From a virus, in the IMG/VR virus record IMGVR_UViG_3300031227_000492, positions 1 to 21,949 of that record: 21,949 bases of DNA; one strand, 5' to 3'. Within the stretch, counting starts at the first letter, position 1; each line of letters begins with the position of its first letter. The notes beneath the pieces are model-generated. The model did not search any database. It was not told where the DNA came from and was given only the letters and a program-made list of their open reading frames with translations. Below are positions 5,219 to 13,978 of this stretch, one piece after another. Made by a program: the position numbers and the translations under genes.

Positions 5219-5245
5219 CAAACGCCGCAAATGCGGAGGAGCAAA

Positions 5246-7468
5246 ATGGCCAGCCGAAAACAACGAAAACTGACACAGGCCGCTCGCCGGCAGGAATCGG
5301 AATTGCGCAAGGTGATCGGTAAGGCACCGGCCGAGTTCAACATTGAGTGTGCCGGTGTCGGCCTCGTCGAGTTTATCGAGGCGGCGGACTCCGACGGCGA
5401 ACCACAACTCAAGCGTTTCAAAATGCTCGCCTACACGGGCGGCACTCTCAATCTCATGTTCTGGCCGTATCCGGTGATTATCGATCTCACCGGTCTCAAG
5501 ATCAAAGGAAAGAGCCAGCCGATCCTGCGCGACCACGACTACCAGCTCATCGTCGGCCACTCGGACAACGTTGAGGTCGGCACGGCCCGCGTTCGGGTCG
5601 AGGGCGTAATGTCCGGCGTCAGCGATTCCGCCGCCGAGGTCATCGCGACAAGCGCCAACGGGTTCCCGTGGCAGGCATCGGTCGGGTGCAGCGTGGCCCC
5701 GCCATACGGCCAGGTCGCCTTTGTCGACGAGGGAGCGAAAGTCACCGTCAACGGAAAGAGCTTTACCGGCCCGTGCTATGTAGCACGGAAGTCGATGTTG
5801 AAAGAAATCAGCTTTGTCGCATTAGGCGCGGACGACAACACCATCGCAAACGTCGCCGCGTCTGCCTTTTTCCCTTTGGAGGACCGTACCATGAAAACGT
5901 TCGAAGAATGGGTCCAGGCGATGGGCCTCGATCCCGAGACCATTTCCGCCGAGCAGCGCACAGAGCTGCAGGCTGCGTATGACAAAATAACCGCAGAGGC
6001 CACGCCGGCAACGCCGCCGGCGGCTCCGCCCGCAATCACCACGCCGCCCGCAACCGCGACACCGCCCGTCCAGGCGGCCGCACCGCAGCCGGCGGGCCCG
6101 GACCTGATGGCCGAGCTCCGAGCCGAACACACCCGCCTCAACGCGATCAACGCGTTCGCGGCCCTGCAATTCCCCGGCATCGGGCCGGAGGAGATGGCCA
6201 CGATCAAGGCCAAGGCCGTGCAAGAGAACTGGACGGCCGACGCGACCGAGCTCGCAATGGTGCGGGCCTCGCGTCCGACAGCGCCAGCAGTCGGCGGATT
6301 CGGTCGGGTCCAAGGCACAGCCGAGAACCAGACGATGCTGTGCGCCGCACTGGCCGCAGCTGGCGGCATCGAAGACAAGAGCCGCGTCAAAATCTACGGC
6401 GAAAAGGCCTGCGAGCAGGCCGACTCGCTCCGTGGCATCGGCCTCCAGGAGTTCCTGGTGCTGGCCGCCGCCGCAGGCGGGGTCGATCCGAACTCCATCC
6501 CCCGCTTCCGTTCCGACGCGCAGGGATTCCTGCGGGCCGCGTTCTCGACCGTCTCCGTGCCGACCATCCTCAACAACACGGCCAACAAGCTCCTGCTCGA
6601 AGGTTACAACTACACCGACCAGACCTGGCGGGCAATCGCCGCGACGAAGCCGGTCAATGACTTCAAGGCCCACACACGGGTCCGGCTCACCGCCGACGCA
6701 AAATACGAAAAGCTCGGACCGGCGGGCGAAATCACGCACGGCGTGCTCGACGAGAACTCGTTCAGCCAGCAGATCGACACGATGGCACGGATGTTTGCCA
6801 TCACGCGGCAGGACATCATCAATGATGACCTCGGCGTGTTCGACTCGCTCCGCAGCGTGCTCGGCATGGGCGCAGGCGATGCCATCAACGACACGTTCTG
6901 GACGCTCCTGCTCTCGAACCCGTCAAGTTTCTTCTCCGCCGGCAACAGCAACTACGTCACGGGCCTCGCATACGCGCTCAGCATCGCCGGGCTCGACAAG
7001 CTCGAAGAGACGATGCTCAACCAGAAGAAGCCCGCCGTCGGCAAGGAAACCAAACCCTCGCCGCTCGGCGTCAGGCCGAAGGTGCTGCTCGTCCCGCACC
7101 AGCTCGCCTCGACGGCTCGCGGGCTCCACAAGTCAACGGACGTTCGCGACACCACAGCGAACACGAAGTACCCCACGGCCAACATCTGGGCCGGCCAGTT
7201 CGGCGAGGACAACGGCACGCTCGTTATCTCGCCGTTCATCGGCAATTCCGCGTTCACCGGGAACTCGGCCACGGCGTTCTACATGTTCGCCGACCCGCAG
7301 GTCCTCCCAGCCATCGAGGTCGCGTTCCTCAACGGCAATGACGCCCCGACCGTCGAGTCGTCCGACGCGGACTTCAACACCCTCGGCATCCAACTGCGCG
7401 GCTACCACGACTTCGGCGTCGCCATGCAGGACCCGAAGGGTGCCGTCAAGAGCAAGGGCATCGCATGA
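5246..7468 (+). CDS. Prohead maturation protease / major capsid protein fusion
   Basis: The protein (740 residues from ATG 5246, GGAGGA at 5235-5240; an ATG at 5231 overlaps that site) joins two functions normally encoded separately. Residues 1 to about 215 look like an HK97-type (U35) prohead serine protease: His97 in LRDHDY, Ser145 in WQASVGCS, and KEISFVALGAD with Glu187 are in the expected order and spacing. Residues about 216-345 contain a helical, Pro/Ala/Thr-rich section that could act as a scaffold (delta) domain. The rest is the major capsid protein, with PHQLASTARGL and a C-terminus RGYHDFGVAMQDPKG typical of phage shells. The protease presumably frees the capsid domain during prohead maturation. 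A strong internal start at 5891 may also give free capsid protein (525 residues). Confidence 0.92.
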   Translation: MASRKQRKLTQAARRQESELRKVIGKAPAEFNIECAGVGLVEFIEAADSDGEPQLKRFKMLAYTGGTLNLMFWPYPVIIDLTGLKIKGKSQPILRDHDYQLIVGHSDNVEVGTARVRVEGVMSGVSDSAAEVIATSANGFPWQASVGCSVAPPYGQVAFVDEGAKVTVNGKSFTGPCYVARKSMLKEISFVALGADDNTIANVAASAFFPLEDRTMKTFEEWVQAMGLDPETISAEQRTELQAAYDKITAEATPATPPAAPPAITTPPATATPPVQAAAPQPAGPDLMAELRAEHTRLNAINAFAALQFPGIGPEEMATIKAKAVQENWTADATELAMVRASRPTAPAVGGFGRVQGTAENQTMLCAALAAAGGIEDKSRVKIYGEKACEQADSLRGIGLQEFLVLAAAAGGVDPNSIPRFRSDAQGFLRAAFSTVSVPTILNNTANKLLLEGYNYTDQTWRAIAATKPVNDFKAHTRVRLTADAKYEKLGPAGEITHGVLDENSFSQQIDTMARMFAITRQDIINDDLGVFDSLRSVLGMGAGDAINDTFWTLLLSNPSSFFSAGNSNYVTGLAYALSIAGLDKLEETMLNQKKPAVGKETKPSPLGVRPKVLLVPHQLASTARGLHKSTDVRDTTANTKYPTANIWAGQFGEDNGTLVISPFIGNSAFTGNSATAFYMFADPQVLPAIEVAFLNGNDAPTVESSDADFNTLGIQLRGYHDFGVAMQDPKGAVKSKGIA
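5878..5893 (+). promoter_or_regulatory. Internal ribosome binding site and ATG at the protease/capsid boundary
   Basis: GGAGGA at 5878-5883 lies 7 nt before an in-frame ATG at 5891-5893, exactly where the protease domain ends and the capsid part (MKTFEEWVQAMG) begins. Spacing and sequence match the real starts in this operon. It would yield a 525-residue capsid protein without protease. The sequence is direct; use of the site is inferred. Confidence 0.65.
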
Positions 7469-7479
7469 TCGTCGTCGCC

Positions 7480-7518
7480 GGGTCGGGCGGAGGCCCATCC
7501 GCGGGCGCCGCCCGGCCC
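7480..7518 (+). terminator. GC-rich hairpin after the capsid gene (partial terminator or RNA-stability element)
   Basis: GGGTCGGGCGG (7480-7490) pairs with CCGCCCGGCCC (7508-7518), an 11-bp stem with one G-T wobble. A second, smaller hairpin (CGGGC/GCCCG) is nested on its 3' side. No continuous T run follows, only CTGTTTGATGTTTGATG, so complete termination is doubtful. Because the decoration gene follows at 7577, partial termination or protection of the abundant capsid mRNA is more likely. Confidence 0.4.
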
Positions 7519-7576
7519 CTCCCCCCTGTTTGATGTTTGATGATTTGGAAACCCAACTGATTTGGAGGGCCGAACA

Positions 7577-7927
7577 ATGGCCACCGCACTTGTGCTGTAT
7601 GTCACACCCGGAGCCGTCGTCGAATACACCCCCGTCTCCGCCGTCTCCGCCGGCGACGTCGTTGTCCTCAACGACCTGGTCGGCGTTGCCAACCAGCCCA
7701 TCGCGGCCGCCGCCCAGGGCGAGCTGACCATCGAGGGCATCTTCGACTTCCCCAAAAGCACCGGCTCCGCCTCCGCCATCGCCGCAGGCAAGAAGGCGTA
7801 CTGGGATGCCGCCAGCGAGGTCGCGACCGAGACGTCCGTCGCCAACACGTTCCTCGGCCTCGTCGTCGCCGCCGCAACGGATGACGATGAATTCGTTCGT
7901 ATCAAGAAGGTTCTGTTGTCCGCCTGA
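7577..7927 (+). CDS. DUF2190-family capsid decoration/stabilisation protein
   Basis: A 116-residue protein starting at ATG 7577, with GGAGGG at 7564-7569. The sequence shows the family's hallmark pattern: an early VVEYTP segment, then AGDVVVLNDLVGVANQPIAA, a GIFDFPKSTG turn, AAGKKAYWDAAS and a C-terminal hydrophobic beta end. DUF2190 proteins are small beta-rich phage proteins encoded next to the major capsid gene and are thought to coat or stabilise the shell. Placement directly after the capsid fusion agrees. It is encoded 11 bases before the glycan cassette, which makes it one candidate acceptor for glycosylation (inference). Confidence 0.9.
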   Translation: MATALVLYVTPGAVVEYTPVSAVSAGDVVVLNDLVGVANQPIAAAAQGELTIEGIFDFPKSTGSASAIAAGKKAYWDAASEVATETSVANTFLGLVVAAATDDDEFVRIKKVLLSA

Positions 7928-7938
7928 GGAGCCGCTTG

Positions 7939-8586
7939 ATGCTTTCTGTGTGCATAGCACATTCGGCACGGTCAACAATTTCAGCGCGGGGACGGATGAT
8001 CGCCCTGTTCCCGCGCTGCGTTGGCTCACTCTGCGCGGCAGTGGCCCCGTCGTGCGCCGAACTTGTCGTGGCGGACTACCCGCACAACCGCGACGCCGGC
8101 CCGGCGTTGGCCGACTGGCTCCCGAAGGCCTGCACGATCCCGTTTCGGATTATCGAAATGGACGGCCAGTGGGACAAGGGCCGGGCGCTCAATGCCGCTG
8201 CGACTGCGGCAACGGGTGACGTGCTGTTTTTCCTCGATTGCGATTTCCTCGTCACTGCCGAGGTGCTGACACGGGGCGTTGAATACGCGGCCACTGGCAA
8301 GGCGTGGTTTCCCGGCTACTTGGCCCAGAACGGTCCCGGTGGCAAATTCGACCGCGTGCCGAAATGTATGGGCTGCGGCAACATGATTCTGTCCCGGACC
8401 CTCTGGTCACAGTTCAAGGGCTGGCGCTCCGCCACGGAGCACGGCCAGATCGACCAGCCGGCGGGCCGGTGGTTCGCCGAGCGCGGGCTGTCGGCTGAAT
8501 CGACCAAATACCGCCGACCGGTCAAGGGTTTTGTGCATCTGTGGCATCCGAAATATCTCGGCTGGGGGGATGCCGTCACATGTTGA
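7939..8586 (+). CDS. GT-A (GT2-like) glycosyltransferase 1
   Basis: This 215-residue protein transfers a sugar from a nucleotide-sugar donor; acceptor and sugar are unknown. ATG 7939 is chosen because GAGGA lies 8 nt upstream; a TTG one codon earlier is weaker. The diagnostic stretch is DKGRALNAAATAATGDVLFF followed by the metal-binding DxD, D100-C-D102 (LDCDF). The rest of the catalytic domain follows (GCGNMILSRTLW), as in small galactosyltransferase-like GT2 enzymes. There is no membrane segment, so it should act in the cytoplasm. It is the first gene of the cassette, 11 nt after the decoration protein gene, and its end overlaps the next start by 7 nt. Confidence 0.85.
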   Translation: MLSVCIAHSARSTISARGRMIALFPRCVGSLCAAVAPSCAELVVADYPHNRDAGPALADWLPKACTIPFRIIEMDGQWDKGRALNAAATAATGDVLFFLDCDFLVTAEVLTRGVEYAATGKAWFPGYLAQNGPGGKFDRVPKCMGCGNMILSRTLWSQFKGWRSATEHGQIDQPAGRWFAERGLSAESTKYRRPVKGFVHLWHPKYLGWGDAVTC

Positions 8587-9329
8587 CATACGACCTCATT
8601 CTCCTGAGCTACCGCCGTCCGCAAAATATCGCGGGCTGTATGGCTGCTGTCCGGCGTCAGTCGGTTTTGCCACGGCAGATATGGGTCTGGCACAACGCCC
8701 CGTCCGCTGTGGTTGTCGACGGTGCGGTCAACGTCCATTGTGATGACAACGGCGGGTGTCGGCCACGCCACGCCATCGGCCAGTTGAGCCAGGCGGACGT
8801 GTGTATTTTCGTCGACGACGACCTGCTGCTCTTCGATCCGAACGTTGTTGCCGCATTGCTGGCAGCCGTCTCGCGCCACCCGTCGAGCGTTGTCGGCGTC
8901 GCCGCCCGTCGCCTCACAACGGCGTCTGGAAACATGTATGGCGACGGGGCGGTCGAATGTGCCTCGTGGAAACAATCTGCCGAACGAGCTACCACGCCAG
9001 AGGGCGACCAGCCCGTCTCCGTGGTCAAGGGCCGCGTGCACGCCGTGCGTCGTTCACTCCTGCATCTGGCGTTCCGGCACGACCTCCCGGCCGACGTTGC
9101 CGGTGAGGACGACATTGTCCTGAATGCCGAACTCCAGATCGAAAGCGGCGAACCGTCCTGGCTGGCGGGCGGCATCGAACGCGGCTGGGTTCGGAACATC
9201 CCCGACATCGAACTCGTCAGCAACGAACATCGCGACGACCACTTCGCACGGCGGTCTGCCACATGCAATTGCATGGTTGGGCTCGGCTGGAACCCGCTGG
9301 CCTGGAAGGGAGCGAGTGCCCGTGTCTGA
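8580..9329 (+). CDS. GT-A (GT2-like) glycosyltransferase 2
   Basis: A 249-residue soluble glycosyltransferase. ATG 8580 has GGGGGGA at 8565-8570 upstream and overlaps the previous gene by 7 nt; the open frame upstream of it is a shadow. The N-terminus YDLILLSYRRPQNI is the beginning of a GT2 fold, FVDDDLLLFDP (D79-D81) is the DxD metal site, and AGEDDIVLN (E176, D177, D178) matches the catalytic ED motif region. It differs enough from the preceding enzyme that the two are not a recent duplication. Donor and acceptor are unknown. The strict coupling implies that both act on the same glycan. Confidence 0.85.
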   Translation: MLTYDLILLSYRRPQNIAGCMAAVRRQSVLPRQIWVWHNAPSAVVVDGAVNVHCDDNGGCRPRHAIGQLSQADVCIFVDDDLLLFDPNVVAALLAAVSRHPSSVVGVAARRLTTASGNMYGDGAVECASWKQSAERATTPEGDQPVSVVKGRVHAVRRSLLHLAFRHDLPADVAGEDDIVLNAELQIESGEPSWLAGGIERGWVRNIPDIELVSNEHRDDHFARRSATCNCMVGLGWNPLAWKGASARV

Positions 9330-9972
9330 TATGGCGAAAATCACCCGGCACATTATCAAATCCAGACGCTCGGTGCGCGGCGGCTTCACCGACGAGCCGG
9401 TCAGCCGCGAAGACCTGCTTGATCTTGTCGAGGCCGGGACGTGGGCACCAAGCGGCGGCAACTGGCAGAACGTTCGATTCGTTATCGTGACCGACCCGGC
9501 GGAGATCGACCGGATCGGCCGCATCCGAATGTCCTGGCCGTATCGTTCGACCGCCCCGCCCGCTGGCATTATCGGCCACGCTCGCGCTCTGATTGCGGTG
9601 TTTGTCGATACGAGCGTCGCGGCCTGGTACGGCCGCCACAACGGGGACATCTGGTGGCAGTTGGATTATCAATCGTCAGCCGCCGCGATTCAAAACATGC
9701 TCCTGCTCGCGTTCGCCAAAGAGCTCGGGGCGTGTTGGGTCAGTGCGTTTGTGTCGATGAACGAAAGAGACTGCCTGCGCGGGCAGACTTGGCGGGATGT
9801 CTGGCACCCGTATGACGTTCCCGACGCCTGGCAAATTCACGGCATTGTGATGCTCGGCCATCGGGCGGACGCGGCGATTGGTGAACGAGAGCATCAGGGC
9901 CGGCCGGTCAAACGGCGGTCGCCCGAAGAGCACATCTGGTCGTTCGATCACGAGAGGATGGCCGCGAAATGA
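9322..9972 (+). CDS. Nitroreductase-family (FMN-dependent) oxidoreductase
   Basis: A 216-residue member of the nitroreductase fold family, which binds FMN and uses NAD(P)H to reduce nitro groups, quinones, flavins or other substrates. The N-terminal signature is clear: SRRSVRG at about 14-20, then the APSGGNWQ motif at 42-49 and RFVIVTD, with KELGACWVSAF later where the family has its conserved helix. GTG 9322 is preferred (AAGGGAG at 9306-9312, 9-nt gap); GTG 9316 and ATG 9331 are alternatives. The start overlaps glycosyltransferase 2 by 8 nt and the end overlaps the next gene by 4 nt. Its substrate is unknown, and a redox enzyme is unexpected in a glycan cassette within phage structural genes. 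Confidence 0.87.
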   Translation: MSDMAKITRHIIKSRRSVRGGFTDEPVSREDLLDLVEAGTWAPSGGNWQNVRFVIVTDPAEIDRIGRIRMSWPYRSTAPPAGIIGHARALIAVFVDTSVAAWYGRHNGDIWWQLDYQSSAAAIQNMLLLAFAKELGACWVSAFVSMNERDCLRGQTWRDVWHPYDVPDAWQIHGIVMLGHRADAAIGEREHQGRPVKRRSPEEHIWSFDHERMAAK

Positions 9973-10781
9973 GAATGCTCAATCTCGATCAATGGGCCGA
10001 ACTGTTCGAGCCGTTCGAAGGCAAACGCCTCGGCTACGTTCGTGGCGAATTCGGCAACGTTGGTGACACGCTCCAGGAGCGTGCCCTCTTCGAGCTCACG
10101 CAGCATTTCGGCCTTGATTGCACGTGGCTCGGCCCGGTGGCCGAGGGACGCGAGCCGTGGAACTGGGAGCTCGACGATGGCCGCTGGAACGGCCGGCTCC
10201 GTGCCGACGTGGACGAGCTGCTCCTGTTCGGCGGCGGCAATATGGGTATTAAGGGCGGCTCGGCCAGAATTCGGGTGAAGGCCGCGAAGCTCGGCCTGCC
10301 CATTACCATCCTGCCAAACTCCTGGCGGGCGCCGGAAACCGTCCCGAATTGCGTTCGGTATTGCGCCCGCGAACCCGGCAGCCATCTCTTCTGCGCCGAT
10401 GCCGACGTGTTTCCCGACCTCGCTTTGTCGCTCGATTGGGATGACGACACAATCAACCTGCCACCGAGAAAGCCGCTCGGCGTGTTTCTCCGGCGCGACA
10501 AAGAGGCACGGTTCGCCGATGCTGTTCCAGAACACAATCAGGGCCCGCCCTTCGACCTCGTCGGCAAACGTGACGTGGGCGGTTACGTTGCCTTGGCCGC
10601 TCGTTATCGGGTCATCGTGACCGACGCCCTGCATTTCTCCGTCTGCGGCCTGGCATGCGGCCGCAAGGTCTACCTCGTGCCGGGCACATATCACAAAAAC
10701 CGTTCGATGTATGAGGCGTGGTTACGCGATCTCGGCTGCCACTGGGCCGCGTCGCCGGATGAAATCGAGGAACTCCAATGA
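9969..10781 (+). CDS. Polysaccharide pyruvyl transferase-family protein
   Basis: A 270-residue protein of the polysaccharide pyruvyl transferase family (PF04230-like), which usually adds pyruvate ketals from phosphoenolpyruvate to sugars, making the glycan acidic. Motifs in order are GNVGDT at 29-34, LFGGGNMG at 86-93, ITILPNSW at 112-119, and TDALHFSV at 218-225 followed by a typical C-terminal GRKVYLVPGTYHKNRSMYE. ATG 9969 overlaps the previous stop (ATGA), with GAGAGGA about 10 nt upstream. It is soluble. Some family members use other donors, so the chemistry is inferred. Confidence 0.85.
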   Translation: MRMLNLDQWAELFEPFEGKRLGYVRGEFGNVGDTLQERALFELTQHFGLDCTWLGPVAEGREPWNWELDDGRWNGRLRADVDELLLFGGGNMGIKGGSARIRVKAAKLGLPITILPNSWRAPETVPNCVRYCAREPGSHLFCADADVFPDLALSLDWDDDTINLPPRKPLGVFLRRDKEARFADAVPEHNQGPPFDLVGKRDVGGYVALAARYRVIVTDALHFSVCGLACGRKVYLVPGTYHKNRSMYEAWLRDLGCHWAASPDEIEELQ

Positions 10782-11305
10782 TCGCCGAACATTCCGGATG
10801 CGTCGGTCGATGCAAAATTCACGCGGACGAGCTCGAACTGCTCGCGTCGGCGGTCAAGCCACATGCTCGTGTGCTGGAAATCGGCACGCTCGACGGCGTG
10901 ACCGCCGCCCTGCTGGCCCAGCGGGAACCGGATGCGCTGATTGTCAGCGTCGACATTTTCCGGCAAGTGACCCCGGATTGTTGGTTCGCGAACCGTCAGC
11001 CGAACATGCGGCTCTTCGTCGGGACGACGGCCGATTTGGTTCGGAGTAGCTCACCGCCCCGTGACGGAATGGGTTTCCGGTGGTGGTTCGATGTGGCGTT
11101 TGTCGATGGCGATCATCGTTACAAGCAATGTTTCATTGACCTTTGCAAATGCAGTGAGCTTGTGAGCGGCCCGATCTTCGTGCACGACTACGGCGTCGCC
11201 TTGCGGCCGGGTGTGACGCGGGCGGTCAATGAGTTTGTGGCAAACGGGGAAGAGTGGTTAATCGGTCGAATCGCGGGAACACTTGTGGAGCTTGTTCGTC
11301 GATGA
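10778..11305 (+). CDS. Class I SAM-dependent methyltransferase (Methyltransf_24-like)
   Basis: A 175-residue methyltransferase. Motif I, VLEIGTLDGVTAALLA (from residue 32), binds S-adenosylmethionine. VSVDIF gives the acidic residue at the end of the second strand, and DVAFVDGDHRY (105-115) is the signature of the Methyltransf_24 group, which includes sugar and antibiotic O-methyltransferases. The start overlaps the previous stop (ATGA, GAGGA at 10764-10768), and the end overlaps the sulfotransferase start. Context suggests O-methylation of a sugar in the same glycan. A DNA methyltransferase is unlikely, because no target-recognition domain or DPPY-type motif is present. Confidence 0.85.
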   Translation: MIAEHSGCVGRCKIHADELELLASAVKPHARVLEIGTLDGVTAALLAQREPDALIVSVDIFRQVTPDCWFANRQPNMRLFVGTTADLVRSSSPPRDGMGFRWWFDVAFVDGDHRYKQCFIDLCKCSELVSGPIFVHDYGVALRPGVTRAVNEFVANGEEWLIGRIAGTLVELVRR

Positions 11306-11901
11306 AAAGAGTTTTTGTCATAGGCACAGGACGATGCGGAACGCGGACGTTTGCGATGGCATGCAGGCACATCACAAATTTCACGAGTGCCCACGAATCG
11401 CACGCCCGGAAATTCATCGGCAACCTCGAATACCCCGACCAGCACATCGAGGTCGACGGCCACCTGTCAATTGCAATGCCGCTCCTTATCAAACGCTACC
11501 CGTCCGGCCCGGACACCGTGTACGTTCACCTCATTCGCGAACGTAAATCGTGCGTGGATTCGTTCTCGCGGCGGCACGGAATGGACCTGTTCGCGGCGAT
11601 TCATTGCTTCGTCGAATGCACCAAGCACACGCCGGAACGGCGGCTCGAAACAGCTGGCTACGCATACGACGTGACCAACGCGATCATCGACACGACTCTC
11701 CGAAAGGCACAACAGATCAGTGGCTGGTCGGTGCAAGGTTACGTTTTGACCACATTCATCGAGGACCTTGTCGCCGCGTGGCCTACCTTCTGGGAGCTGA
11801 TCGGTGCGGAGGGGGATTACACCGCCGCACTGGCCGAATGTGCCAAACGCTACAACCGCGGCCTTGAGTCAAAAGGCGAAACCGTGAGGGACGAGCATTG
11901 A
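11302..11901 (+). CDS. Sulfotransferase-family protein
   Basis: A 199-residue protein beginning MKRVFVIGTGRCGTRTF. The GTGRCGT loop (8-14) is the 5'-phosphosulfate binding motif of PAPS-dependent sulfotransferases, and VHLIRERKSCVDSFSRR (about 75-91) is the 3'-phosphate-binding element with the conserved Arg and Ser. A carbohydrate or protein acceptor is likely in this context. It would need host-made PAPS; no PAPS synthesis gene is visible. It is shorter than many family members but has both cofactor motifs. ATG 11302 overlaps the previous stop (ATGA), and the stop overlaps the next TTG start. Confidence 0.82.
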   Translation: MKRVFVIGTGRCGTRTFAMACRHITNFTSAHESHARKFIGNLEYPDQHIEVDGHLSIAMPLLIKRYPSGPDTVYVHLIRERKSCVDSFSRRHGMDLFAAIHCFVECTKHTPERRLETAGYAYDVTNAIIDTTLRKAQQISGWSVQGYVLTTFIEDLVAAWPTFWELIGAEGDYTAALAECAKRYNRGLESKGETVRDEH

Positions 11902-13604
11902 TTCCCAAAATCATTCACTTCATCTGGCTCGGTTCGCCACTGCCCGCGTGGGCGGAGCGAAACATCGCCGAGTTCCGCCGCCTGAATCCCGAGCACGAAA
12001 TCCGCATTCACGGTGCCGACGCGATTGTCGATGAGTACCGGCCGCACTGCACCCCCGACGAGCACGCGAGCGCGCGGTCGGACCTGATCCGATATGGCAT
12101 TCTCGAACGCGACGGTGGCTGGTATTTCGACGTCGACTATTGGCCCCTTCGCCCGGTCGAAGACGCTGAGCGGGCCTACGCGCTCGACGGCTCGCAGCTC
12201 TTCGCAAGCTGGATGAACAATCCGCGAATCAACAACGGCGTCCTCGCTTGCGGCCCGGGCCTCCCGCTCTGGCGCAAAATGGCGGAATGGATACACGATG
12301 GCGGCGTAAAGGGCCGCTACGGCGGCCGGACGAAATACGGCCCGCGCCTGATCACGCGGCTCTTCGAGCAAACGCCCGAACAGGTCTGCATCGCATCCTG
12401 GCCGTGGTTCCACGGCGTCCCGGATGTGATGGCCGGAAAAATGTACCGGCGACTCCAGCGGGCGGCGGATCCGGAGTTTGCACGCATGCTCGTGCCGGCG
12501 ACAAACGGCCAACTCCCGTTTGCATTTCATCTGTGGGCACACACGCACACCGAGCAAATCGACGGCCATCCAGCCGGAGTCATCGCTGGCGTCGGCACAG
12601 GCGACCGGCTGATCGCAATCTGTGGTCAGCCAGAACGCAAGGACGACGGCTCGCGGCCGTGGCACAACATCGCGGCCGCCGCGGCGAAACTCGGGTTCCG
12701 CGCCGAAATCGTCGACTATCAAAAACCGGACGCGCTTGAAAAGGTGTCTGACATTCCCGATGCAGTCGTTTGCTGGAACGCTCTGAAAGGCGTTCACGCC
12801 AAACACGCCGAACTGGCCCGCCGCTACAGGGCGAAGACGCTGATTCTGGAACACGGATTCTTTGGCCGCAACGAGCACTTCCAGGCCGACCACGAGGGCA
12901 TCCTGCACCGCGCTTCGTGGTTGGCCAGAATCAACGAGCCGGCCCCGCCGGACGGGGCGGAACGGCTCAGGGTGTTTTACCCTGATGGCATCACGCCAAT
13001 GCAACGCCGTCACGGTTATGTCCTCGTCCTGGGGCAGGTCGCCGGTGACAGCCAACTGATTGACAGCGAGGTCGCCGCTCCCCGGCCGCTCCAGCGGCTA
13101 GTTCTTGGCTCGTTGCCGCCGGACGTTGCGGGTTATTTCCGGCCACACCCGGCCACGATGCGCGAACGCCGGCTGCGCACGCGGCAGATACTGCCGATCC
13201 TGGGCGGCGGACCCGACCCGACCGAGAGCGACAATTACAAACAACACAAGACCGGCTGCGGCTTGGCCGAGGCACTCGAAGGCGCGGCGTTCGTTATCGC
13301 GATCAACTCGAATGCTCTCAACGAAGCCCTGGCCGCAGGCGTCCCCTGCCTGGCGTTCGGGCCGTTCCTCGGAATCGCAGCCGGTGTTGTCCATCCAGCC
13401 ACCATCAAAACGCTTCGCAACGATATTGCCGAGATGGTTGAGGGTTGGTGCCCGCAGCGGGAGGACGTTGAAAACTATCTCCAATGGCTCGCCGCCCGCC
13501 AGTGGAGTGTCGCGGAATTTGAAAGCCCCGAGCTGCTCGGCCGGCTGTTGTCCGACGCCGGCCTTGAGTTGCCACGCCAGTCACACGCGGAGGCCGCCGG
13601 ATGA
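11898..13604 (+). CDS. Bifunctional glycosyltransferase: GT32-like domain fused to KpsS-like GT-B domain
   Basis: A 568-residue two-domain enzyme starting at a TTG that overlaps the sulfotransferase stop (TTGA). Residues 1 to about 220 form a GT32-type (DXD, Gly_transf_sug) domain: IPKIIHFIWLG at the start, SARSDLIRYGILERDGGWYF and the metal site FDVD at 77-80. Residues about 235-560 resemble capsule-polysaccharide GT-B enzymes (KpsS-like): LILEHGFFGR at 315-324, GQVAGDSQL, FRPHP at 414-418, and INSNALNEALAAGVPCLAFG at 469-488, the usual nucleotide-sugar site. Each domain should add one sugar, so the fusion may build a disaccharide. It has no membrane segment. The stop overlaps the head-tail connector start, tying the cassette to the virion genes. 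Confidence 0.83.
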   Translation: MIPKIIHFIWLGSPLPAWAERNIAEFRRLNPEHEIRIHGADAIVDEYRPHCTPDEHASARSDLIRYGILERDGGWYFDVDYWPLRPVEDAERAYALDGSQLFASWMNNPRINNGVLACGPGLPLWRKMAEWIHDGGVKGRYGGRTKYGPRLITRLFEQTPEQVCIASWPWFHGVPDVMAGKMYRRLQRAADPEFARMLVPATNGQLPFAFHLWAHTHTEQIDGHPAGVIAGVGTGDRLIAICGQPERKDDGSRPWHNIAAAAAKLGFRAEIVDYQKPDALEKVSDIPDAVVCWNALKGVHAKHAELARRYRAKTLILEHGFFGRNEHFQADHEGILHRASWLARINEPAPPDGAERLRVFYPDGITPMQRRHGYVLVLGQVAGDSQLIDSEVAAPRPLQRLVLGSLPPDVAGYFRPHPATMRERRLRTRQILPILGGGPDPTESDNYKQHKTGCGLAEALEGAAFVIAINSNALNEALAAGVPCLAFGPFLGIAAGVVHPATIKTLRNDIAEMVEGWCPQREDVENYLQWLAARQWSVAEFESPELLGRLLSDAGLELPRQSHAEAAG

Positions 13605-13978
13605 CCGATCAACTTCAAGCCGCCGTTGCCTGGCTGGGCGCCACCCGAAAAGAATCGATGGCGCGGACCGTGACCTATGTTCGTGGCGATGACACCGTCG
13701 CTGTCGCGGCGACGGTCGGCAAAACGGAGTTTCCCGTGGTCGGACCAGACGGTGTCCAGTCTGCGGTCGAATCGCGGGATTACATCATCAACTCGGTAGA
13801 CCTCGTACTCGACGGAGCCGTCGTCATCCCGCAGCGTGGCGACCAGGTCCGCGATACGGTCAATGGCGTGGACCGCACCTATGAGGTGCTGTCGCCCGGC
13901 GGCACCCAGCATTATCGGTTTACCGGCCCGGACAACGGCCTGTGCCGAATTCACACCAAACTCGCCGTCAGAGGATAA
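13601..13978 (+). CDS. Probable head-tail joining (connector/stopper) protein
   Basis: A 125-residue protein whose ATG overlaps the preceding stop (ATGA). Its content is beta-strand rich: ARTVTYVRGDDTVAVAATVG, then VIPQRGDQVRD and YEVLSPGG, a pattern common to small head-closure or stopper proteins that seal the portal and receive the tail. No single motif defines these proteins, so the call rests on size, composition and position, directly before tail-completion genes and the tail tube. It is the first structural gene after the glycan cassette. Confidence 0.65.
   Translation: MTDQLQAAVAWLGATRKESMARTVTYVRGDDTVAVAATVGKTEFPVVGPDGVQSAVESRDYIINSVDLVLDGAVVIPQRGDQVRDTVNGVDRTYEVLSPGGTQHYRFTGPDNGLCRIHTKLAVRG

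Follow-up and report, generated by a model that had tools for sequence, protein, structure and literature searches.

What would a run of seven sugar-modifying enzymes be doing in the middle of a phage head operon? This question is raised by the IMG/VR virus record IMGVR_UViG_3300031227_000492, a linear fragment of 21,949 bases that we analysed in its entirety (the window). Its operon reads terminase, portal, protease-capsid fusion, cement protein, seven enzyme genes (here g1 to g7), head-tail connector, tail tube and tape measure. An earlier note on this DNA had proposed that the seven genes act in the cytoplasm to glycosylate a soluble protein of the virion. The recurrence of this slot in related phages and the covariation of the decoration (cement) protein with g7 support the proposal, which can now be sharpened to one residue and one enzyme: g7 probably O-glycosylates Ser64 of the cement protein, with the cassette elaborating the glycan.

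Related loci were collected by searching with g7 and with the capsid protein, and hundreds of kilobases were read with a purpose-written gene caller. Loci carrying g7 were recruited via g7 and those with an empty slot via the capsid protein; the records are for the most part fragments. After deduplication, g7 lies between cement and connector in 34 phages, the two structural genes are adjacent in 118 (the empty slot), 9 phages contain other inserts and 28 could not be judged. The presence of the seven-gene set in this place is confirmed, and a search for the same set beside DUF2190 genes of other phages, as suggested by the earlier note, finds the set, or variants of it, at precisely this position again. 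All of g1 to g7 are found in the same order in L006, without g6 in L007 and without g5 in L012; the capsid proteins of these three are only about 31-38% identical. Judging from the sequences, such a recurrence of gene order is far beyond chance. In L002, which is most closely related to the window, g1, g6 and g7 are retained, and g2-g5 are replaced by a radical S-adenosylmethionine (SAM)/SPASM protein, two other methyltransferases and one other protein. Elsewhere the slot contains TylF-type and further methyltransferases, a GT47/RXYLT1-like protein, a YdjC deacetylase or a GT2-methyltransferase fusion. The recognisable accessory families in slots with g7 are those of sugar and methyl transfer together with sulfotransferase-like, deacetylase-like and radical SAM proteins.

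The constant element is g7, which is the last gene of the slot and is present in every cassette slot described. It directly follows the cement gene in 7 of the 34 phages, L003, L015 and L209 among them, and one to six additional genes accompany it in the other 27. Given that it can stand alone, g7 can be a sufficient core, and since it is constant whereas its companions vary, the cassette consists of one constant gene plus interchangeable accessories. The "seven-gene cassette" of the earlier note does recur as a full set (L006), but is better read in this way.

The evidence on the acceptor comes from the cement sequences, which were compared column by column between phages with g7 and phages with an empty slot (Fisher's test; 377 tests). 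In a first pass serine was present in 21 of 21 phages with g7 and in 3 of 62 with an empty slot, one of these three exceptions being the truncated cassette L146. In the enlarged set column 61 (Ser64 of the window) ranks at the top of all tests, with serine in 33 of 34 against 7 of 118 phages (p = 2e-25). Counting only loci fetched after the discovery, the numbers are 13 of 13 against 4 of 57 (p = 5e-11). Because an initial tree of 79 rows yielded just five independent pairs (p = 0.06), more loci were fetched. On the capsid-protein tree g7 is gained or lost 17 times, with well-supported branches forcing at least 10 of these changes, and among phylogenetically independent pairs serine tracks g7 in 9.4 of 10 on average and never in the opposite direction (median p = 0.004). 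A second associated residue is found at the position of Glu81, where Asp or Glu occurs in 30 of 34 phages with g7 against 13 of 118 without (p = 2e-17; 7.2 of 10 pairs). Other g7-associated cement columns (63, 65, 59, 70 and 78) cluster round column 61. Column ST86 also gave a Fisher signal and was rejected after failing the tree-controlled test.

The same column test on the capsid, portal, connector, tail tube, p15, p16 and p18 proteins gave far weaker columns, whose tracking of g7 among independent pairs is absent or slight. Of the three candidate targets named earlier (capsid, decoration or tail tube protein), the covariation thus picks the decoration protein and within it one serine, while capsid and tail tube show nothing comparable. 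The model of the cement protein (116 residues, mean predicted local distance difference test score (pLDDT) 85.5) matches the decoration protein of phage phiCD508 (1.7e-5); the protein is predicted to fold like capsid-surface decoration proteins, with Ser64 in a loop between strands.

Variant cassettes are informative as well. In L229 and L233 g7 is reduced to its GT32 domain and the serine is retained, which points to the GT32 domain. The truncated cassettes L146, L289 and L233 all have the serine; it is absent from L128 and L130, which carry another glycosyltransferase-like gene in the slot and in which no g7 was found. In L026 a tail-tube protein (L026:2612-3241) ends in a cement half-domain (DUF2190-like; residues 153-207, E = 2e-14), the sole cement-like match in its 31.7 kb record. 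The serine is kept in this half-domain, and a g7 cassette that includes a polysaccharide deacetylase lies directly behind the tail-tube gene (L026:3303-8440). The arrangement hints at a second form of the system, directed at the tail.

The two halves of g7 were characterised from an alignment of 25 sequences and an AlphaFold2 model built from it (mean pLDDT 91.1). The N-terminal half passes the GT32 cut-off of Pfam (24.9 bits against 23), and D78 and D80 in GGWYFDVD are nearly invariant. Foldseek against the PDB returns the protein O-glycosyltransferases SetA (9e-8), YeGT and PaToxG, and a profile search finds the same core as in the TcdA/TcdB-type transferase domains; as modelled, the resemblance to SetA/TcdA-type enzymes is remote and confined to the core. 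For the C-terminal half the matches are KpsC (8fux, 7e-8), WbbB and KrkA. The conserved elements of such transferases for 3-deoxy-D-manno-oct-2-ulosonic acid (beta-Kdo transferases) are QXXXD, in which the Asp acts as covalent nucleophile, and the (K/R)XHP motif for binding cytidine monophosphate (CMP) (PMC12887879, PMC10148158). Residues Q380, D384, R415, H417 and P418 of g7 are invariant in the alignment. Because a profile search of the PDB with the Kdo domain alone returned nothing, the Kdo assignment rests on predicted fold and motifs. Most likely this domain uses a CMP-sugar donor, Kdo being favoured; other CMP-sugars are possible, as related enzymes may take them (GT118, diacetyl-Pse; PMC12887879).

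The scheme that we propose builds on the observed gene order, the constancy of g7, its folds and motifs and the covariation with Ser64. The slot between cement and connector would be an O-glycosylation module for a virion protein, with g7 as its core. The GT32 domain would start the glycan by linking a sugar to Ser64 of the cement protein on the capsid exterior, after which the C-terminal domain would add a Kdo-type acidic sugar from a CMP-sugar donor via a covalent intermediate at Asp384. The variable upstream genes (two GT-A transferases and WbbZ/pyruvyltransferase-like, methyltransferase, sulfotransferase-like and nitroreductase proteins) would extend and tailor the glycan in the cytoplasm during head assembly. 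As these genes vary, each phage would wear its own capsid-surface sugar, the putative product serving perhaps as a shield, in adsorption or in antigenic variation. With about even confidence we extend this scheme to a modular capsid O-glycosylation in uncultured, probably Planctomycetota-infecting phages, in which g7 would prime one decoration-protein serine and exchangeable tailoring enzymes (sulfo-, methyl- and pyruvyl-like, deacetylase, radical SAM) would individualise the glycan, as a virion counterpart of bacterial O-antigen diversity.

Several observations weigh against this assignment. Seven phages with an empty slot have serine in the column, several of them through gap placement. A true-looking case is L177, in which a separate protein at 13807 reads (by eye) as glycosyltransferase-like, and the Planctomycetota prophage L351 has the serine too. 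The sole exception among the phages with g7 is L003, which has g7 alone, an unusual cement protein of 374 residues and a 3-residue deletion beside another serine. GT32 also includes sugar-to-sugar transferases, so that the fold alone is no proof of protein glycosylation. Finally, cement gene and cassette are adjacent, and their exchange as a unit might account for part of the association; the resolution of the cement tree (96 columns) is insufficient to settle this. As a separate observation, the cement protein of L003 (L003:3391-4515) has a long Gly-rich extension.

Co-transfer is also part of the alternative that survives best, though we regard it as unlikely: a virion protein other than cement (the major capsid or tail tube protein) would carry the glycan, and the cement serine would merely mark cement variants travelling with the cassette. 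PMC12363180 and PMC12619734 place mycobacteriophage glycans on capsid and tail tube; g7-related genes occur near a different capsid gene in L036-L041, where no cement gene was recognised; and in L055 a cassette with glycosyltransferase- and sulfotransferase-like genes lies behind the tail tube. Nevertheless, the association within the cement protein is local and not spread, which, together with the lack of anything comparable in the seven other virion proteins and the serine kept in the tube-fused half-domain of L026, argues against co-transfer as the whole story.

We find it improbable that the enzymes act on the host cell envelope, in superinfection exclusion or seroconversion. GT2, pyruvyltransferase-like, sulfotransferase and Kdo-transferase-like enzymes are commonly found in loci for surface polysaccharides, and the GT-B half of g7 resembles the capsule enzymes KpsC and WbbB. 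However, Pfam and hydropathy searches bear out the earlier statement that flippase, polymerase and lipid-carrier transferase are absent from the seven genes, and the embedding in the head operon by overlaps of 4 nucleotides (nt) in many phages does not fit; the position and the cement covariation would be left unexplained. Neither is a convincing membrane segment found, although the earlier claim that there is none needs the qualification that two hydropathy windows slightly exceed 1.6 (1.78 in g1 and 1.85 in g7, the latter inside a confidently folded Rossmann domain). Equally improbable is that the genes are passengers (morons) in a tolerant junction without a common target. The accessory genes differ greatly between phages and most relatives have an empty slot, but g7 is constantly last, the recognisable accessory genes fall in the families listed above, and a specific residue of the adjoining structural protein covaries with g7. 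Glycosylation of phage DNA (hypermodified bases) is very improbable: viruses are known whose own glycosyltransferases hypermodify DNA with diverse glycans (Pyle et al. 2024, cited in PMC12619734), yet neither the late-operon position nor the cement covariation fits, and thymidylate synthase/deoxycytidine monophosphate (dCMP) hydroxymethylase family members were found in 0 of 12 related records, mostly fragments, with working positive controls (a TET/JBP search was uninformative, its controls giving no match).

How does the proposed O-glycosylation of the cement protein compare with known systems? For the mycobacteriophages Che8, Corndog and Myrna, PMC12363180, PMC11256854 and PMC12619734 (citing Freeman et al. 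2023) report virion glycosylation with glycans on capsid and tail tube, for which phage-encoded glycosyltransferases are proposed. Here, too, glycosyltransferases are encoded among the structural genes. Differences are the constant fusion of GT32 and Kdo-type domains, the decoration protein with one serine as predicted acceptor and the exchangeable tailoring enzymes; at the sequence level, tblastn against INPHARED gives no g7 homologue among the mycobacteriophages. Since phage virion glycosylation is already known, this is not a new kind of system; it would be a clearly distinct form, predicted here from its genes. Chlorovirus PBCV-1 likewise supplies from its own genome most, if not all, of the transferases for its capsid glycan, but it is a eukaryotic algal virus with N-glycans attached via a beta-glucosyl-Asn core, so that linkage and acceptor are unrelated (PMC11571054). 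WbbB (GT99), KpsC (GT107) and KrkA (GT140) share with g7 the fold, the QXXXD motif with its nucleophilic Asp and the CMP-binding (K/R)XHP motif; they act on polysaccharides or lipid-linked sugars, whereas the g7 domain is fused to GT32 in a phage head operon. GT32, TcdA-TcdB-type and SetA-type domains have in common with g7 a catalytic core with SDxxR and DXD, and their solved relatives include protein O-glycosylating enzymes. Only this core is shared: g7 has no toxin, secretion or receptor-binding part, and the protein that it is proposed to modify belongs to the phage itself.

Relatives of g7 are rare in the collections searched. The INPHARED search matched just two environmental phages (26% over the GT32 part, residues 1-184), and therefore no relative is seen among cultured phages; a nucleotide search of INPHARED with the cassette gave no match. 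Scanning bacterial genome contigs with g7 recovered the GT32 domain only and no full-length g7; one match, L114, was checked and is not a phage locus. In 392 Planctomycetota genomes g7 was not found at 1e-30, and no positive control matched there.

The earlier family assignments, made from motifs, hold to different degrees. Pfam supports GT2 for g1, nitroreductase for g3, methyltransferase for g5 and GT32 for g7, whereas g2 and g4 remain below its cut-offs, though profile searches of solved structures back them independently, and g6 is assigned by way of homologues. Orthologues of g1 occupy the same slot in L002, L006, L007, L008 and L012, and one is found in the tail-tube cassette of L026. 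The matches of g2 to Pfam GT2-like families range from 3e-4 to 3e-3, its nearest solved structure in a profile search is EXTL2, and its counterparts in L006 and L007 are 48-51% identical. For g4 the score against PS_pyruv_trans is 23.5 bits (cut-off 25.3), WbbZ is the closest solved structure and identity to the L006 and L007 counterparts is 58-68%. It would be a member of PS_pyruv_trans at superfamily level only, with pyruvylation as a putative activity. By itself g6 reaches just 0.12 in Pfam, and its profile has no match in the PDB. Its homologue in L052 passes the cut-offs for Sulfotransfer_3 (PF13469, 9.5e-8) and Sulfotransfer_4 (PF17784, 3.8e-6), and the P-loop-like GTGRCGT and R79-x7-S87 are invariant across three sequences. 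The support for g6 as a sulfotransferase-like protein, with sulfation as its putative product, is thus indirect.

Table 1. Positions in the window of the proposed acceptor, the seven cassette genes and the bordering structural genes
Feature	Position	Strand	Basis or remark
Head maturation protease - major capsid protein fusion	5231..7468	+	Phage_capsid_4 7e-41, PHROG 4523 2e-66; used for tree
Cement/decoration protein (DUF2190), proposed glycan acceptor	7577..7927	+	Phage_cement_2 3e-22
Cement Ser64 codon TCC, proposed O-glycosylation site	7766..7768	+	Predicted loop, residues 61-72; covariation with g7
Cement Glu81 codon, second g7-associated residue	7817..7819	+	
g1, GT2-family glycosyltransferase	7939..8586	+	PF00535 5e-10
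g2, GT-A glycosyltransferase, EXTL2 (GT64)-like	8580..9329	+	EXTL2 1omx 5.5e-5
g3, nitroreductase-family flavoprotein	9331..9972 (ATG; alternative GTG start 9322)	+	PF00881 9e-26
g4, polysaccharide pyruvyl transferase superfamily, WbbZ-like	9969..10781	+	PF04230 6e-5 (just below cut-off), WbbZ 6x1l 6e-6
g5, SAM-dependent methyltransferase (Methyltransf_24)	10778..11305	+	PF13578 1.8e-6
g6, sulfotransferase-superfamily protein (putative)	11302..11901	+	Profile matches of homologue L052; GTGRCGT, R79...S87
g7, bifunctional glycosyltransferase (predicted), TTG start	11898..13604	+	AlphaFold2 pLDDT 91.1; constant slot gene
g7 N-terminal GT32 domain, DXD in GGWYFDVDYW (residues 73-82; D78, D80)	11898..12560	+	PF04488 3e-5, PF12919 3e-5
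g7 C-terminal retaining beta-Kdo-transferase-like domain	12570..13577	+	Fold match KpsC 8fux 7e-8; WbbB, KrkA
g7 motif Q380-V-A-G-D384, codons	13035-13049		
g7 motif R415-P-H-P418, codons	13140-13151		
Head-tail connector (Phage_H_T_join_3), right slot border	13601..13978	+	PF25138 9e-31

The arrangement of the genes largely agrees with the earlier description of seven plus-strand frames that overlap by 4 to 8 nt and run into the connector. A gap of 11 nt separates the cement gene from g1, g1 and g2 overlap by 7 nt, and an overlap of 4 nt is found at each of the junctions g3/g4, g4/g5, g5/g6, g6/g7 and g7/connector. Only at g2/g3 does an overlap (8 nt) depend on the GTG start at 9322; from the ATG the two genes are 1 nt apart. 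Over positions 7501-11500 the AT skew is negative or near zero across g1-g6, and it is clearly positive over most structural genes. This contrast may be a sign of a later arrival of the cassette.

With respect to the host, the capsid protein has matches in 53 of 392 Planctomycetota genomes (up to 886 bits) and in 23 of 299 Pseudomonadota genomes (at most 228 bits). Because the matches are stronger and more common in the former of the two phyla surveyed, a planctomycete host is likely for the phage group, and by extension would apply to the window phage. Prophage-like loci of Planctomycetota (for example L347-L356) show the order portal-capsid-cement(-connector), and where both genes are recognised nothing was recognised between cement and connector.

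So far glycosylation of virions has been demonstrated for only a few phages, whereas here an acceptor residue, a core enzyme and a variable tailoring set are predicted from sequence for a large environmental group. If the prediction is true, the diversity of phage surface glycans would be comparable in logic to that of bacterial O-antigens, and charged, sulfated capsid sugars would influence how particles adsorb, survive and are recognised. A soluble enzyme for protein O-glycosylation that joins two domains, one of them a Kdo-type module, might also be of use as a tool.

Some further arrangements were observed among the loci. In L055 (8617-11843) glycosyltransferase-like, sulfotransferase-like (a g6 homologue) and MptE-like genes follow the tail tube; the cement slot is empty and the cement serine present. 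L036-L041 come from another group of phages, whose capsid gene is unrelated; shortly behind it lie genes related to the Kdo-type half of g7 only, along with other methyltransferase and rhamnosyltransferase-like genes. The N-terminus of the connector contains Gly/Ser-rich repeats in L173 (9577-10452). In L161 (18034-21690) a poly-serine protein with tracts of at least five serines directly precedes a run of glycosyltransferase-like genes, one with a weak GT32 match, and two GT32-like genes are similarly located after the tail genes in L205 (20605-21947).

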